NCBI RefSeq assembly: GCF_900111575.1
Contig: NZ_FOIF01000023.1
Coordinates: 1-33,093 of the forward strand
Direction: 5' to 3'
DNA length: 33,093 bases
Source: Anaerobranca gottschalkii DSM 13577
Lineage (GTDB): Bacteria > Bacillota > Proteinivoracia > Proteinivoracales > Proteinivoracaceae
Under the pieces are notes generated by a model, which did not search any database, was not told where the DNA came from, and saw only the letters and a program-made list of their open reading frames with translations. The position numbers and the translations under genes were made by a program. The stretch's first letter is position 1. Every line of letters starts with the position of its first letter. This document shows positions 7,526 to 31,500 of the stretch, one piece after another.

Positions 7526-8257
7526 ATGAGAATTGAAGTGACCTTTTATTGTGATAAAGGTACAAAAATAGATTTTAATTATAATTATAGTCTCTCAAGA
7601 CTAATTATGGAATCCCTTTTTGACAATAAAAGTGCTTTATATCACAAAGGTAAGCCTTTTAAATATTATACCTTTTCCCAATTATATTTTTCTCAGTTTG
7701 AAATAAGTGGAGATTATATAGTAAGTTTAGGTGAAGAAGTCCATTGGTATGTATCATCACCCAATCCTTTTTTTATAGATGGGCTTGTGAAAGGTTTAAC
7801 AAAATTGGGTAGTTATCCTATGGGGCAAGGGGAGTTTGAATTTAAACAAGTTAGGATATTGGATGATCCGGAATTCACCAATGATATGGAGTTTACTTGT
7901 ATGTCACCTATTACTATTTCTTCTATGGGAAGAGGAGCAAAAAGGGAGCTTTACTGTAGAATTGAAAATAAATGTTTTGTGGAGAATTTAAGGTATGATT
8001 TAGTGCAAAAATATTATTATTTGTATAATTCATTCCCCAAAAACGAAAGGCTGGAAATTATTTTCGATAAAAATTATCTAGAAAATAAAAAACGGACTAG
8101 TAGGTTATTAGATTATAACGGTGTTAAAGTATTAGGATATATGGTACCCTTTGTAGTTAAGGGAAGCCCAGATCTTATACGGGTAGGATATTCCTGTGGT
8201 TTTGGAGAAAGAAATAATCAAGGTTTTGGTATGGTTAAAGTCTGGCATAGAAGTTAA
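7526..8257 (+). CDS. cas6: CRISPR-associated endoribonuclease Cas6, solitary
   Basis: A 243-residue Cas6-family RNase, which cuts CRISPR repeat RNA to make crRNAs. The N-terminal RAMP domain holds LYHKGKPFKYYTFSQL, with H40 the likely general base. The C-terminus has the diagnostic glycine-rich loop GYSCGFGERNNQGFGMVKV (221-237, plus flanks), matching the GhGxxxxxGFGxV motif of Cas6. Length is normal and nothing is broken. GGGAGG lies eight bases before the ATG. What is odd is the setting: a dedicated promoter upstream, a strong terminator right after it, housekeeping genes on both sides, and no other cas gene or CRISPR array in the window. It may serve arrays elsewhere in the genome or another RNA. 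Family assignment is strong; the function of an isolated copy is open. Confidence 0.87.
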   Translation: MRIEVTFYCDKGTKIDFNYNYSLSRLIMESLFDNKSALYHKGKPFKYYTFSQLYFSQFEISGDYIVSLGEEVHWYVSSPNPFFIDGLVKGLTKLGSYPMGQGEFEFKQVRILDDPEFTNDMEFTCMSPITISSMGRGAKRELYCRIENKCFVENLRYDLVQKYYYLYNSFPKNERLEIIFDKNYLENKKRTSRLLDYNGVKVLGYMVPFVVKGSPDLIRVGYSCGFGERNNQGFGMVKVWHRS

Positions 8258-9345: not shown

Positions 9346-10293
9346 GTGAAAGAGTTTGTTGAGATATTAAAAGAGAATAAGGGGAAAAAAGTTTTAGTTT
9401 TATGCCATGATGATGCAGACAATGATGCCATTGGGGCAGGATTTGCTATGGCAGAACTAACTAAAGGAACTTTAGCGGTTCCGCAAAAAGTATCTGAACA
9501 CGCCCTTGAATTGATCAATAAATTGGCAGCTAAAATAGAAGTTGCCCCCAATCCTCTAGACTATGATTTGGTGATTATAGTAGATACGGCGGACATACAA
9601 CAATTACCTGGTATAACCCTTAAAAATTATATTTTAATTGATCATCATAAAAACAATTTATTGTTAGAAAAAAGTCAAGCCCATATATATAAATTGGTAG
9701 ATTCTACTTGCCAATTAGTTTATTATCTTTATAAAGAAATGGAAGCACATTTAACGCCAGCAGTAGCTTTAGGATTAGCAGCGGGAATTTTAGGAGATAC
9801 TGTCGGTCTTACTAAAGCATCTAACAAAGCCATAATTGACTTAGGAAATATTTTACAAGACGGTAATATAGGCTATTCTACCGTTTTAAATACCTTTAAG
9901 ATTAGTAGTAAAATAGAAAGGCTGCAAAAATTAAAAGCTGCTACCGGGGGAAAAGTTTATGAATTCTCTGATTGTATTTTGGTTTACTGCCAGCCTGACA
10001 AAAATTTCCTCTACTATGTAGCAACTATGTTTTTGGAGTTAGGAGCAGACTTAGCTTTAGTAGGGTATAAAGAAGGGGACTGGATACATTTAAGGTTAGT
10101 TAAGTCTAATCAATGCTTAACTAGTCATAATGTCTATGAAATTGTTAAAAAAGCCTCAGAAAATATGGTTGTAGAAAATTTTTGGGGTGACCAATATTTT
10201 GCAGGTTTTAAAGGTCAAGGGGATTACGACTTTTTTATCCAAAGAATCTTAAGGGAAATCGAAAATATAAGTAATAAAAACCTCCCTAATTAG
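9346..10293 (+). CDS. DHH/DHHA1-family phosphoesterase
   Basis: A 315-residue member of the DHH phosphoesterase superfamily, Mn-dependent enzymes that cut phosphodiester or phosphoanhydride bonds of nucleotides such as nanoRNA, pAp or c-di-AMP. Metal-site motifs are visible: HDDADNDAIGAG near residue 21, VDTAD near 81 and DHHK near 101. The C-terminal half fits a DHHA1 substrate domain, with a weak GGG-type motif (GFKGQGDYDF). No PAS or GGDEF part is present, so it is not GdpP. The start is GTG 9346 with GAGGTGGTG just upstream; a TATAAT-like sequence at 9318-9323 may be its -10. The stop codon lies inside a bidirectional terminator. The substrate cannot be told from sequence reading. Confidence 0.82.
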   Translation: MKEFVEILKENKGKKVLVLCHDDADNDAIGAGFAMAELTKGTLAVPQKVSEHALELINKLAAKIEVAPNPLDYDLVIIVDTADIQQLPGITLKNYILIDHHKNNLLLEKSQAHIYKLVDSTCQLVYYLYKEMEAHLTPAVALGLAAGILGDTVGLTKASNKAIIDLGNILQDGNIGYSTVLNTFKISSKIERLQKLKAATGGKVYEFSDCILVYCQPDKNFLYYVATMFLELGADLALVGYKEGDWIHLRLVKSNQCLTSHNVYEIVKKASENMVVENFWGDQYFAGFKGQGDYDFFIQRILREIENISNKNLPN

Positions 10294-10302
10294 GAGGTTT
10301 TT
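10276..10302. terminator. Bidirectional terminator containing both stop codons
   Basis: AAAAACCTCC (10276-10285) pairs with GGAGGTTTTT (10293-10302), giving A and T tracts on both sides, so it works in both directions. The stop of the DHH gene (10291-10293) and of the convergent folate gene (10290-10292) both lie in the loop and stem. Confidence 0.88.
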
Positions 10303-10643
10303 ATTATTTCCTCAAGTTTTTCTGCCAGCTCTGGCAAATTTAGAGGTTGAATTTTTAACTTTTTTATAACTTCTTTGTATTGCCTGATAGTACCCATCAT
10401 AATACAATCGGTGTATTTGTCTCTACAGTTAACGGTATTTTCACTTACTGCAACTTCTCCACCTTTAGACAAAAATTCTTGTTTTAAAATGTTAGCTGCA
10501 GTTGTAGATAGATTCTGTAATTTTATTACTTTAAAAACACATTTATCTGCCATTAAGTTGATACTAGCAGGGCTAGCGTTGACTTTTTTAATTTCTTCTT
10601 TAGCACTTTGAAGGTTTGGGATGTCTAAAATTTCTAAATTCAC
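10290..10643 (-). CDS. Freestanding dihydropteroate-synthase N-terminal-type domain
   Basis: A 117-residue soluble protein. It matches, from memory of the family, the extra domain of about 110 residues that precedes the TIM barrel in many clostridial dihydropteroate synthases: INLMADKCVFKVIKL, then AANILKQEFLSKGGEVAVSE, TVNCRDKYTDCIMMGTIRQY, KLKIQPLNLPELAEKLEEI. The catalytic barrel is absent: the gene ends in a proper stop and terminator, and folT lies upstream. Start is GTG 10643, seven bases after GGAGG; that ribosome site abuts the folT stop, so the genes are coupled. Under the THF riboswitch it must belong to folate biology. It could bind a pterin/folate or partner the synthase; the role is unknown. 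A decayed FolP remnant is less likely because the reading frame is intact. Confidence 0.68.
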   Translation of the reverse strand: MNLEILDIPNLQSAKEEIKKVNASPASINLMADKCVFKVIKLQNLSTTAANILKQEFLSKGGEVAVSENTVNCRDKYTDCIMMGTIRQYKEVIKKLKIQPLNLPELAEKLEEIIKTS

Positions 10644-10647
10644 AAAA

Positions 10648-11301
10648 TTACCTCCTATGGGTAACTATTCTATGGGCTACTACAGGTTGAACAATTTTGT
10701 TTAAAAGAAAAACTGTAATAGAGTATAGGATCATCAAAGTTAGTTGGGTAGGTAATCTTAGGAAATAAGCTTCCCATAATGGCCAACCAAAGGCATGGGC
10801 AAGACCTATAGTAGTTATAAATCCAGTAATTAGCTGAGTTAAAGATACTGTAAAAAGAAAGTTGATAAAAGAGTTTCCTTTAAACAATAACTTAAAGTAG
10901 TGGGGTAAAACACCATAAAGACCTTGGGCTACAAATATTAAAAAAATCGGTGATCCTTGTGGAAATAAAGTGACTCCAACGACATCAGCAACTGCTCCTA
11001 CAGCAAATCCCCAATGAGGACCTAATACTAAACTAGCTATGATAATAGGGATAGGTCCTAAACCAATCCTCAAAGCTGGTAATCCCCCTAAAGGTATTAC
11101 AGCGCTGGCGAATCGTGTTAGAACGATACTCAAAGCAATGAGCAAAGACGCTAATGTTAAACAATAGGTTTTATTCATTGTAGTAGATGGAGTTTTCCCT
11201 TTAGAAATATAGGAAAATAAGGCGAAGATGGTAGCGAATACTACTACTTGAAAATAGAAATTAGTACTTAGTGTTTCTACAAACCAATTAAAAATTTCCA
11301 T
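10648..11301 (-). CDS. folT: Folate-specific S component of an ECF transporter (FolT)
   Basis: A 217-residue membrane protein with about six hydrophobic segments. It has the FolT-type core: LTLASLLIALSIVLTRF, GGLPALRIGLGPIPIIIASL and VGAVADVVGVTLFPQG. S components bind the vitamin from outside and use a shared EcfA/EcfA'/EcfT energising module, here encoded elsewhere. The assignment to folate is independently supported by the THF riboswitch that leads this gene and by the folate-related gene after it. GGGAGG (11310-11315) precedes the ATG by eight bases. An N-terminal stretch of about 40 residues before the core adds one extra hydrophobic segment. Confidence 0.92.
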   Translation of the reverse strand: MEIFNWFVETLSTNFYFQVVVFATIFALFSYISKGKTPSTTMNKTYCLTLASLLIALSIVLTRFASAVIPLGGLPALRIGLGPIPIIIASLVLGPHWGFAVGAVADVVGVTLFPQGSPIFLIFVAQGLYGVLPHYFKLLFKGNSFINFLFTVSLTQLITGFITTIGLAHAFGWPLWEAYFLRLPTQLTLMILYSITVFLLNKIVQPVVAHRIVTHRR

Positions 11302-11393: not shown

Positions 11394-11487
11394 GACAGCG
11401 GACGCGATACTATACCGCAGGGCGAAACCTTTCGTCTTAGGGCGACATCCCATCCCTAAGCACTTAACGCATAGTATCTACTCTGCC
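11394..11487 (-). ncRNA. Tetrahydrofolate (THF, folT-type) riboswitch aptamer
   Basis: On the minus strand the core reads GAGTAGAT, then GCGTTAAGTG, GGGATGTCG and GCGTCCGCT, the conserved blocks of class I THF riboswitches. Pairings seen: P1 GGCAG (11487-11483) with CTGTC (11398-11394); P2 ATACTAT (11477-11471) with ATAGTAT (11413-11407); P3 CTTAGGG (11460-11454) with CCCTAAG (11442-11436); and a variable CGAAA/TTTCG hairpin. Downstream, AACCTTC (11363-11357) can pair with the folT ribosome site GGAGGTT, or with the preceding AAGGTT, suggesting translational control. The aptamer assignment is strong; the switching model is inference. Confidence 0.93.
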
Positions 11488-11507: not shown

Positions 11508-11535
11508 ATTATAACATAATAATTATTATTGTCTA
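11508..11535 (-). promoter_or_regulatory. Promoter of the riboswitch-folT transcript
   Basis: On the minus strand TAGACA (11535-11530), 16 bases, TATAAT (11513-11508). Transcription would start about 11500, a dozen bases before the aptamer. The -35 abuts the stop of the sensor kinase gene. Confidence 0.72.
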
Positions 11536-28576: not shown

Positions 28577-31500
28577 ATGAGAAAAATATTGGCATTACTA
28601 GTAATAGGTGTAATGATCTTTACAATTGTACCTAAACCTTATACTGTAACAGCGGAAGAAGGGGAAGAAAAACTAATAGTTTCTGGGACTTATCAGAAGA
28701 TAGACATGGAAAAGGGAGAAAATGATTTTTTAGAGGAAGCTTTGGTAGCTAAGAGTTTAGTCCAAAAAGACAATACAGGAATGAATTTAGAGAACTTGTA
28801 TGTAGCCAATGATGATGAGTACTGGTATATTGGTTTCGAAGGGAAATCTGACTGGGGAATGATGTATGGAATATATATAGATATCGATGGAGTACCGGGT
28901 TCTGGAGGACACTTCAATCCATGGGGTAGAAATGTACCAGTAATAGAAGATTATTATCCTGAATTTGCCATTCACGCTTGGTCCCCTGGAGGAACCAAGA
29001 AGGTAGAACCGGCTCAGTTTATAACTTGGACAGGTGAAAGCTGGGACTCTAAATCTTTGAAAGAAGTAAATGGGAAAGAAGCTAATGATGTAGAAAGTGG
29101 TTTTGTTAAATATGCAATTCCCCACGAAGTATTAGGTAATCCAGATAGTATTAGGGTGTTTCTCTTTATTGCCGGAGGAGATGGCGTACCTCAAGATGTA
29201 GTGCCAGGAGATCAACGGATTTCTACTGGTTGGATGAACGAAATAGATTTTCAATTTGACAAGTTTGTGGAAGTAAAAAGGGCAGAAAAACCAGTGGTTG
29301 AGCCTCTATATTTATCTATTGAAGGACCAAGGGAATTAAAAATTAACAAATTGAGCCATACCTTTAAAGGAGAGACCAATGGAGAAAGCTTAAAGGTTAA
29401 TGATGTGGAAATTCCTTTAATAGAAGGAACATTTGAAGTAGAAGTAATGTTGATGGAAGGGGAAAATGAGTTTGTGTTTTTAGCAATTAGGGGAGAAGAG
29501 GAAAAAGAGGAAAAAATAACAGTTTGGGTCAATACAGAACCGGTAACTATAGAAATTATTCAACCTATAGAAGAAATTACTACCAGCCAACCATTGATTG
29601 AAATCATTGGAAAAACCAATGGAGATCAAGTGTTGATCAATGGACTAGAAGTTCCCCTTAATGAAGATGGAGAATTCCGTTATAATGTTGCCTTAATAGC
29701 CGGCGAAAATATTATAACGATCCATGCTTCCAATAGATACGGCTCAGCAGTTAGTCAATTAGTAAAGGTTATATATGAGAAACCTCAGACTAAAATTATT
29801 ATCGACGGCAATATAGATGAAGCTTATGGTGAACCGGTGGCCATAGATCCTAAGGGAGATATGAAACAACCAGATTTAGATTTGCACCGCTTATTTGTAA
29901 CCGATGATAGTAACTTCTGGTATATAGGTTTAGATTCATATCTAACAAATTGGGGAGTAACCTATGGAATTTATATTGATACCGACAATGTTAAAGGATC
30001 TGGTGGAACTACTGATCCATGGGGAAGAAAAGTAGGGGCTGTGGAAGAACATCTTCCTAACTTTATCCTATACATTTGGAGAAATGGTGATGGTACCATT
30101 AATACTCCTCAGCTTTGGAAGTGGAATAATGATAAGTGGGAGATGACTGAGTTAGATTTAGCCGGTGGTGCAAGTTTTTATAGTCCAGAAAATGAGTTTA
30201 TGGAGTTTGCTATTCCTAAAGTGGTTTTGGGCAATCCAGAATTTATTAACCTCATAGCCTTTACTACTGGAGGAGATGGAATAGCTCAAGATACCACACC
30301 ATCAGATCCAGCTGTAGAACAGGAAGAGCCTATTTGGGGAGCAATTGAACCCACTATTTTATCGGCCTTTGTTAAGGTGGAAGAAACAGTGGCAGGGGCA
30401 TTGTCCTTAGTTGTAGAAGCACCTGAAGATGGGTTATTGACTAATAAAAAGCAAATTAGTGTTAAAGGCCAGACAAATGGAGATAGGGTTTATGTAAATG
30501 ATAGTTTAGTGGAAATAGGGGAAAACGGTAGATTTATTTTCCATTTGACATTAAAAGAAGAAGGAGAACATCAAGTAATTATCAAAGCAGTTAGGGGTGT
30601 AGAGGAATTAACAGTTACTAGAAAAATCTTTGCTGATTTCACTCCACCTCTGTTAGAAGTAACAACACCTACTAAGGATATGGAAGTTGATTCTCAAGAT
30701 TTTACTGTAAAAGGAAAGGTAGAAATAGGAGCAATCCTTTATGTCAATGGTGAGGAAACTGAGTACGATTCTGATGGAAACTTTGAAAAGACCATACGCC
30801 TTATTAGTGGGGTTAACCAGGTAATAATTAGGGCAGTAGATAAAGCTGGCAATATAACTGAAAAGACTTTTAAAATCACCTTTAAAGCTGCTACATCAGG
30901 TCCTACTACCATCAAAGTTGATGGAATAAATGACTTCCCACCCGATACTGTTGTAGGGACTTCACCGGCAGGAAGTATGTCAGAACCCCATCTAGATCTT
31001 CGGAACTTTTATGTAACCGATGATAACCAGTATTGGTATTTTGGTTTTGATGCTTACTTAAAAGGTGATTTCGGGAAGGCTTATGGTATTTATATTGACA
31101 TCGATGGCAAGAAAGGATCTGGTGGAACTACCGATCCTTGGGGTAGAAAGGTAGCTGCTACTGAAGAACATCTACCTGAATACATTATCTATGTTTGGTA
31201 TGATTCAAGGGGATTACAAAATGCCCAATTTATCACCTGGACAGGTAATGGCTGGGATTACAAACAGCTTGTGGATATTGGAGGAAAACAAGGGCACAGC
31301 GAAAACTTCATTGAATACGGGGTTCCTAAACTGTTATTAAATAATGTCCAATCCTTCAATGTAATTCTCTTTACTGTAGGAGGAGATGGTACAGGACCTC
31401 AAGATTCAGCTCCTAAGTGTCCAGCTATAACCTGGAGTGAGCCAAAGTGGAACATTGAAGAGAAAGTTGTTTTAAGTAATTTTGCTAAAGTTGAAGGAAG

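Follow-up and report, generated by a model that had tools for sequence, protein, structure and literature searches.

The 117-residue protein encoded next to folT in Anaerobranca gottschalkii is most probably a freestanding DHFR2, a flavin-dependent dihydropteroate/dihydrofolate reductase domain that reduces imported folate. It is encoded in the window, by which we mean the whole stretch of 33,093 nucleotides that was analysed. In fused form, the domain family is already known together with its activity, and what appears to be new is the freestanding form in a riboswitch-controlled uptake operon. The original prediction described an orphan dihydropteroate synthase (DHPS) N-terminal domain that lacks the barrel, is coupled to folT under a tetrahydrofolate (THF) riboswitch, and has an independent role in salvage. 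These parts are borne out by the homology, by the gene arrangement, and by a genome without folP. However, the roles that were proposed for the domain are not the best fit, and a reductase had not been considered. A carrier or a regulator explains less than the published reductase activity of the homologous domain together with the near exclusion of folA, and a trans-acting FolP subunit does not hold as a general role.

The open reading frame of the orphan is real, with its own GTG start and its own stop codon. It starts 4 nt past the folT stop, and the GTG is found a few nucleotides downstream of the Shine-Dalgarno sequence AGGAGGTAA, which is at the same time the end of folT (Table 1). The THF riboswitch is the sole Rfam match in the window. 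It is located upstream of the genes in the same direction, which is likewise the case at 11 further loci, and a promoter-like site is present about 20 nt upstream of it. The palindrome of the terminator is likewise situated at the 3' end of a DHH-family gene, which converges on the orphan (9346-10293, forward strand). Because the promoter-like site precedes and the terminator follows them, the riboswitch, folT, and the orphan are regarded as one transcription unit.

Table 1. Features of the riboswitch-folT-orphan unit in the window
Feature	Position	Strand	Description
Orphan domain gene	10290-10643	-	117 aa freestanding DHPS N-terminal domain; candidate flavin-dependent dihydrofolate reductase (DHFR2)
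folT, S component (substrate-binding) of folate-family ECF transporter	10648-11301	-	TIGR04518 E=3e-26, 92 bits, cut-off 60; PF12822
THF (tetrahydrofolate, class I) riboswitch aptamer	11394-11487	-	RF01831, 80.9 bits, gathering 36, E=2.3e-17
Promoter-like TAGACA-16-TATAAT, TG before -10	11508-11535	-	Consensus match only, 11/12 positions
AGGAGGTAA, end of folT (its final two Arg codons plus the stop codon)	10648-10656	-	Sequence doubles as Shine-Dalgarno of the orphan
Intrinsic terminator, 15-pair stem	10272-10306	-	Overlaps the orphan stop codon

Elsewhere in the window, a Cas6 CRISPR endoribonuclease gene (7526-8257, forward strand; PF01881, 1.4e-27) stands solitary between sfsA-like and murB-like genes, and no CRISPR array was found among the direct repeats of the window. 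Three diverged 87-nt direct repeats (28895-31198) are spaced by about 1.1 kb, which suggests tandem paralogous genes.

The relation of the orphan to DHPS N-termini is clear. The protein shares 40-46% identity with a stretch of ~113 residues at the N-terminus of clostridial FolPs (~400 aa), and over the ~400-codon FolP frames of dozens of Bacillota genomes the identity is 30-46% with a best E-value of 3.7e-31. In these frames the DHPS barrel model matches just downstream of the domain. The orphan itself does not contain the pterin-binding TIM barrel (PF00809/TIGR01496) and is thus not a FolP. There is no domain model or named family for it in Pfam or NCBIfam and no structure or sequence match in the PDB, and weak matches to PTP2, lanthipeptide, and PEP carboxylase entries in the Pfam, NCBIfam, and PDB sequence searches were rejected as chance. 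Beyond the Bacillota, relatives of the domain are labelled Actinomycetota, Armatimonadota, Margulisbacteria, and Saganbacteria, and one is on an Aenigmatarchaeota contig. The viral contigs searched contained zero copies, and the only match in the plasmid search was Sulfurovum. With the family consensus, tblastn identified the FolP N-terminus of Sulfurovum mangrovi (E=1e-9, 33% identity), and the profile comparison of the family with this domain (hhalign) resulted in 99.6% probability and E=1e-23. The Sulfurovum locus has the order aspartate kinase-hobA-holB-folP (HobA, DNA polymerase III delta'), which we take to be the gene order of H. pylori HP1229-HP1232. The homology to the N-terminal domain of H. 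pylori-type FolPs is therefore established through the FolP and the synteny of Sulfurovum, a member of the Campylobacterota, one step short of a direct link. In the passages of PMC1971073 that deal with it, citing Levin et al. 2004 and 2007, the N-terminal domain of the H. pylori FolP is a flavin-dependent dihydropteroate reductase named DHFR2 and is described solely as fused to DHPS. The orphan departs from this description in being a separate 117-aa ORF in a genome without DHPS. Levin and co-workers reportedly put the activity of the H. pylori FolP in its N-terminal segment and found bound FMN. We infer that the orphan, too, binds flavin and acts as a reductase of dihydropteroate or dihydrofolate; its substrate and the THF-dependent control are presumed as well.

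FREESTANDING copies are present in about nine family codes (f1, f2, f3, f32, f36, f37, f67, f70, and f86), with the freestanding status judged by open-frame length. Two settings dominate among them. In the first, the order is THF riboswitch-folT-orphan as in the window (12 distinct loci: L002, L003, L004, L006-L010, L032, L033, L036, and L037). The pair with folT thus recurs in other families, and no decayed folP adjoins it. In the second setting, the gene of the formate-THF ligase, fhs, is immediately upstream (L015, L029, L034, L040, L041, L048, L145, and L151; L040, for example, is from Thermoanaerobacter wiegelii). Four loci combine fhs, riboswitch, folT, and orphan (L032, L033, L036, and L037). 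In the phylogenetic tree, the freestanding copies of the window's class and of Dethiobacter-type loci cluster together (SH-aLRT 80), and the others are placed elsewhere. With 7 changes on the tree and few columns available, a single origin of all freestanding copies is neither supported nor rejected (AU p=0.315).

Several copies differ from these arrangements. Two loci (L059:3995-4768 and L061:3932-4774) carry the domain as a fusion to FolB, the dihydroneopterin aldolase, instead of FolP, and a folK-like gene comes next; the family match was run on L059, and L061 was assigned by similar sequence. On the Aenigmatarchaeota contig (L097:3947-4968) the gene of the freestanding domain and that of a Vut_1 transporter for vitamin uptake (PF02592, 4e-51) overlap, and they may be a pair for folate or pterin salvage in an archaeon. 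In an Actinomycetota contig (L062:3992-4859) the fused FolP is apparently interrupted, with the domain and some of the barrel in one frame and the remainder in another, which may be a sequencing error. Freestanding copies with KQT replacing the KQE motif were found at L146:3341-3685, L147:5012-5380, and L148:5044-5358; KQT is carried by the freestanding clades f32 and f86. The f32 copies are located between metallo-beta-lactamase-like and HAD-like genes and have no folate neighbours. The KQT copies of both clades possibly have a different function, and given their motif and the neighbourhood of f32, not every freestanding copy need share one job.

The genome of the window (2.3 Mb, 99.2% complete) encodes ThyX, and folP, folK, ThyA, and a recognised FolA were not found in it. 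Its sole pterin-binding domain (PF00809) sits in a MetH-like protein. Because folP and folK are missing, the organism depends on folate uptake by the criterion worded in the part of PMC1971073 that concerns these genes. If the orphan is a reductase, it is expected to replace folA, a prediction that could have failed. Among 101 relatives, folA is present in none of the 58 domain-bearing genomes versus 11 of the 43 others (Fisher p=3.6e-5), and among 299 Bacillota in 8/169 genomes with the domain versus 45/130 without it (p=1.2e-11); both are raw counts that ignore kinship. The domain is therefore present where folA is missing, as is DHFR2, and the genome of the window is one such case. Of the 13 genomes in the window's class, 10 combine the orphan with the absence of folA. 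Two others (G002 and G009) have folT and neither folP nor the orphan, and both encode folA, as the only members of the class. In the remaining genome (G012, 86% complete) a contig breaks off at folT, on the side expected for the orphan. Two of the eight exceptional Bacillota genomes with both domain and folA contain freestanding copies (G105 and G285). These two (loci L141 and L036) have folT and a freestanding domain and no folP, yet folA is present. Neither folA nor the domain is found in 85 of the 299 genomes; thus, other DHFRs exist, and the absence of folA alone is not diagnostic. In addition, nine of the 101 relatives encode ThyA and all nine lack the domain, as would be expected for a low-capacity reductase.

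The same distribution bears on the idea that the protein is a folate carrier or chaperone, which would bind THF or folate without altering it, receiving it from FolT and delivering it to THF enzymes, for example Fhs, and which in FolP would bind the product. The neighbouring importer and THF-consuming ligase, the fusion to FolB instead of FolP in two genomes, and the archaeal copy overlapping a vitamin transporter gene would agree with such a function. However, it leaves the exclusion with folA unexplained, does not account for folA in G002 and G009, where the orphan is missing, and disregards that flavin-dependent reductase activity has been published for the homologous domain of the H. pylori FolP. 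A carrier function is therefore considered unlikely.

The AlphaFold model of the orphan is compact and confident (pLDDT 95.7). In the Foldseek search against the PDB, ThyX chains come out on top (E 0.044-0.5, TMq 0.53-0.63), none of them significant, and the top viral structural match is also a ThyX, with a weak E-value of 0.015. Over all model searches the ThyX matches have E-values of 0.015-0.8. For the Thermoanaerobacter copy, TM-scores are highest with ThyX (up to 0.67), whereas KH domains come first by E-value, covering part of the chain only (TMq about 0.35). The sequence-profile comparison of the domain with ThyX (hhalign) did not reveal similarity. The predicted models hint at a flavin-folate fold of the domain. 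The KH-like partial matches, the small size, and the riboswitch-controlled unit could also be read as signs of a THF- or flavin-sensing regulator of the transporter, of Fhs, or of the operon. It is hard to reconcile this reading with the low coverage and TMq of the KH matches, and the protein does not match any DNA-binding family. The riboswitch already supplies THF control, a THF riboswitch was not found near the freestanding Thermoanaerobacter copies within the region examined, and the domain is fused to the catalytic barrels of FolPs. A regulatory role is thus very improbable.

The original prediction also allowed for a subunit acting in trans, and a freestanding domain is indeed accompanied by a FolP of barrel length at another site in 11 genomes (G003, G044, G095, G121, G129, G181, G215, G234, G239, G252, and G257). 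In contrast, the genome of the window and eight relatives (G001, G004-G008, G010, and G011) have the domain and no folP, and the conserved linkage is to folT and fhs. An obligate FolP subunit was rejected for this reason, and partnership with barrel-only FolPs hardly comes into question as the general role.

The ratio dN/dS is 0.20 between the orphan of the window and that of its congener and 0.09 in two other close pairs, which indicates that the freestanding copies are under purifying selection. The conserved residues of the domain are all present in the orphan (M31, K34, A50, K54, Q55, E56, L58, G61, A65, D79, T85, Q99, and L103), although the conservation of KQE and E56 is partly built into the search pattern. 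K34, Q55, D79, T85, and Q99 are common to the freestanding, the fused, and the Sulfurovum copies, except for the f86 clade, which has N at position 85. Sulfurovum departs from the conserved residues at E56, which is D, and at G62, which is A. The folT- and fhs-linked freestanding copies have kept the residues that are conserved in fused FolPs, with one A50C in G121. Although folP and folK have been lost from the genome, it is scarcely conceivable that the orphan is the functionless remainder of a fused FolP that has disappeared, a reading that we rejected because it is contradicted by the dN/dS values, the intact conserved positions, the own Shine-Dalgarno and terminator, the same arrangement in several families, and the confident compact predicted fold.

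As a freestanding DHFR2, the orphan could act as follows. When THF is scarce, the riboswitch would permit expression of the transporter FolT and of the reductase. FolT would take up folate for an organism that itself cannot make folate and has no FolA, and the orphan would use reduced flavin to convert the dihydrofolate or folate thus imported into THF. The THF product would then feed ThyX and MetH, and elsewhere Fhs. A low-capacity reductase would suffice in such an organism because ThyX makes thymidylate regenerating THF rather than DHF. A more far-reaching version, which we put forward tentatively and regard as rather doubtful, is that a minimal, FolP-independent, flavin-dependent dihydrofolate reductase with a ThyX-related fold is the missing DHFR of a set of ThyX-dependent folate-salvaging anaerobes, perhaps including some archaea, and that it shares an ancestral flavin-folate fold with ThyX.

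Compared with known systems, the domain appears as a portable unit that is found alone, on FolP, and on FolB. With clostridial FolPs, consisting of a TIGR01496 barrel and the domain, the orphan has the N-terminal region in common, whereas the barrel is missing from both the gene and the genome of the window. ThyX (PF02511) binds flavin and folate and provides the top structural matches of the AlphaFold models (TMq 0.56-0.67), but the E-values are not significant, sequence profiles are dissimilar, and a separate ThyX is encoded in the same genome. FolA (PF00186) and FolM would catalyse the proposed reaction at the same position in the pathway, and it is folA that G002 and G009, which lack the orphan, have in its stead. 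They do not have sequence similarity to the orphan, and they use NADPH, whereas the proposed enzyme would use reduced flavin. According to the passages of PMC1971073 on this subject, the genes behind dihydrofolate reduction in many ThyX bacteria without a recognised DHFR are still to be identified. A description of a freestanding DHFR2 was not found in the open-access literature searched. The closest known system is the DHFR2 of the H. pylori FolP, a homologous domain (through the Sulfurovum FolP) that is also found in genomes without folA. There it is fused to DHPS, whereas here it is a separate protein of 117 residues without DHPS, coupled to folT, and under a THF riboswitch. This protein is simpler than the fused enzyme and offers a structure target for a family without a PDB entry, and a DHFR2 that stands alone in an uptake operon under riboswitch control would be a concrete, testable answer for part of the DHFR-less ThyX organisms.
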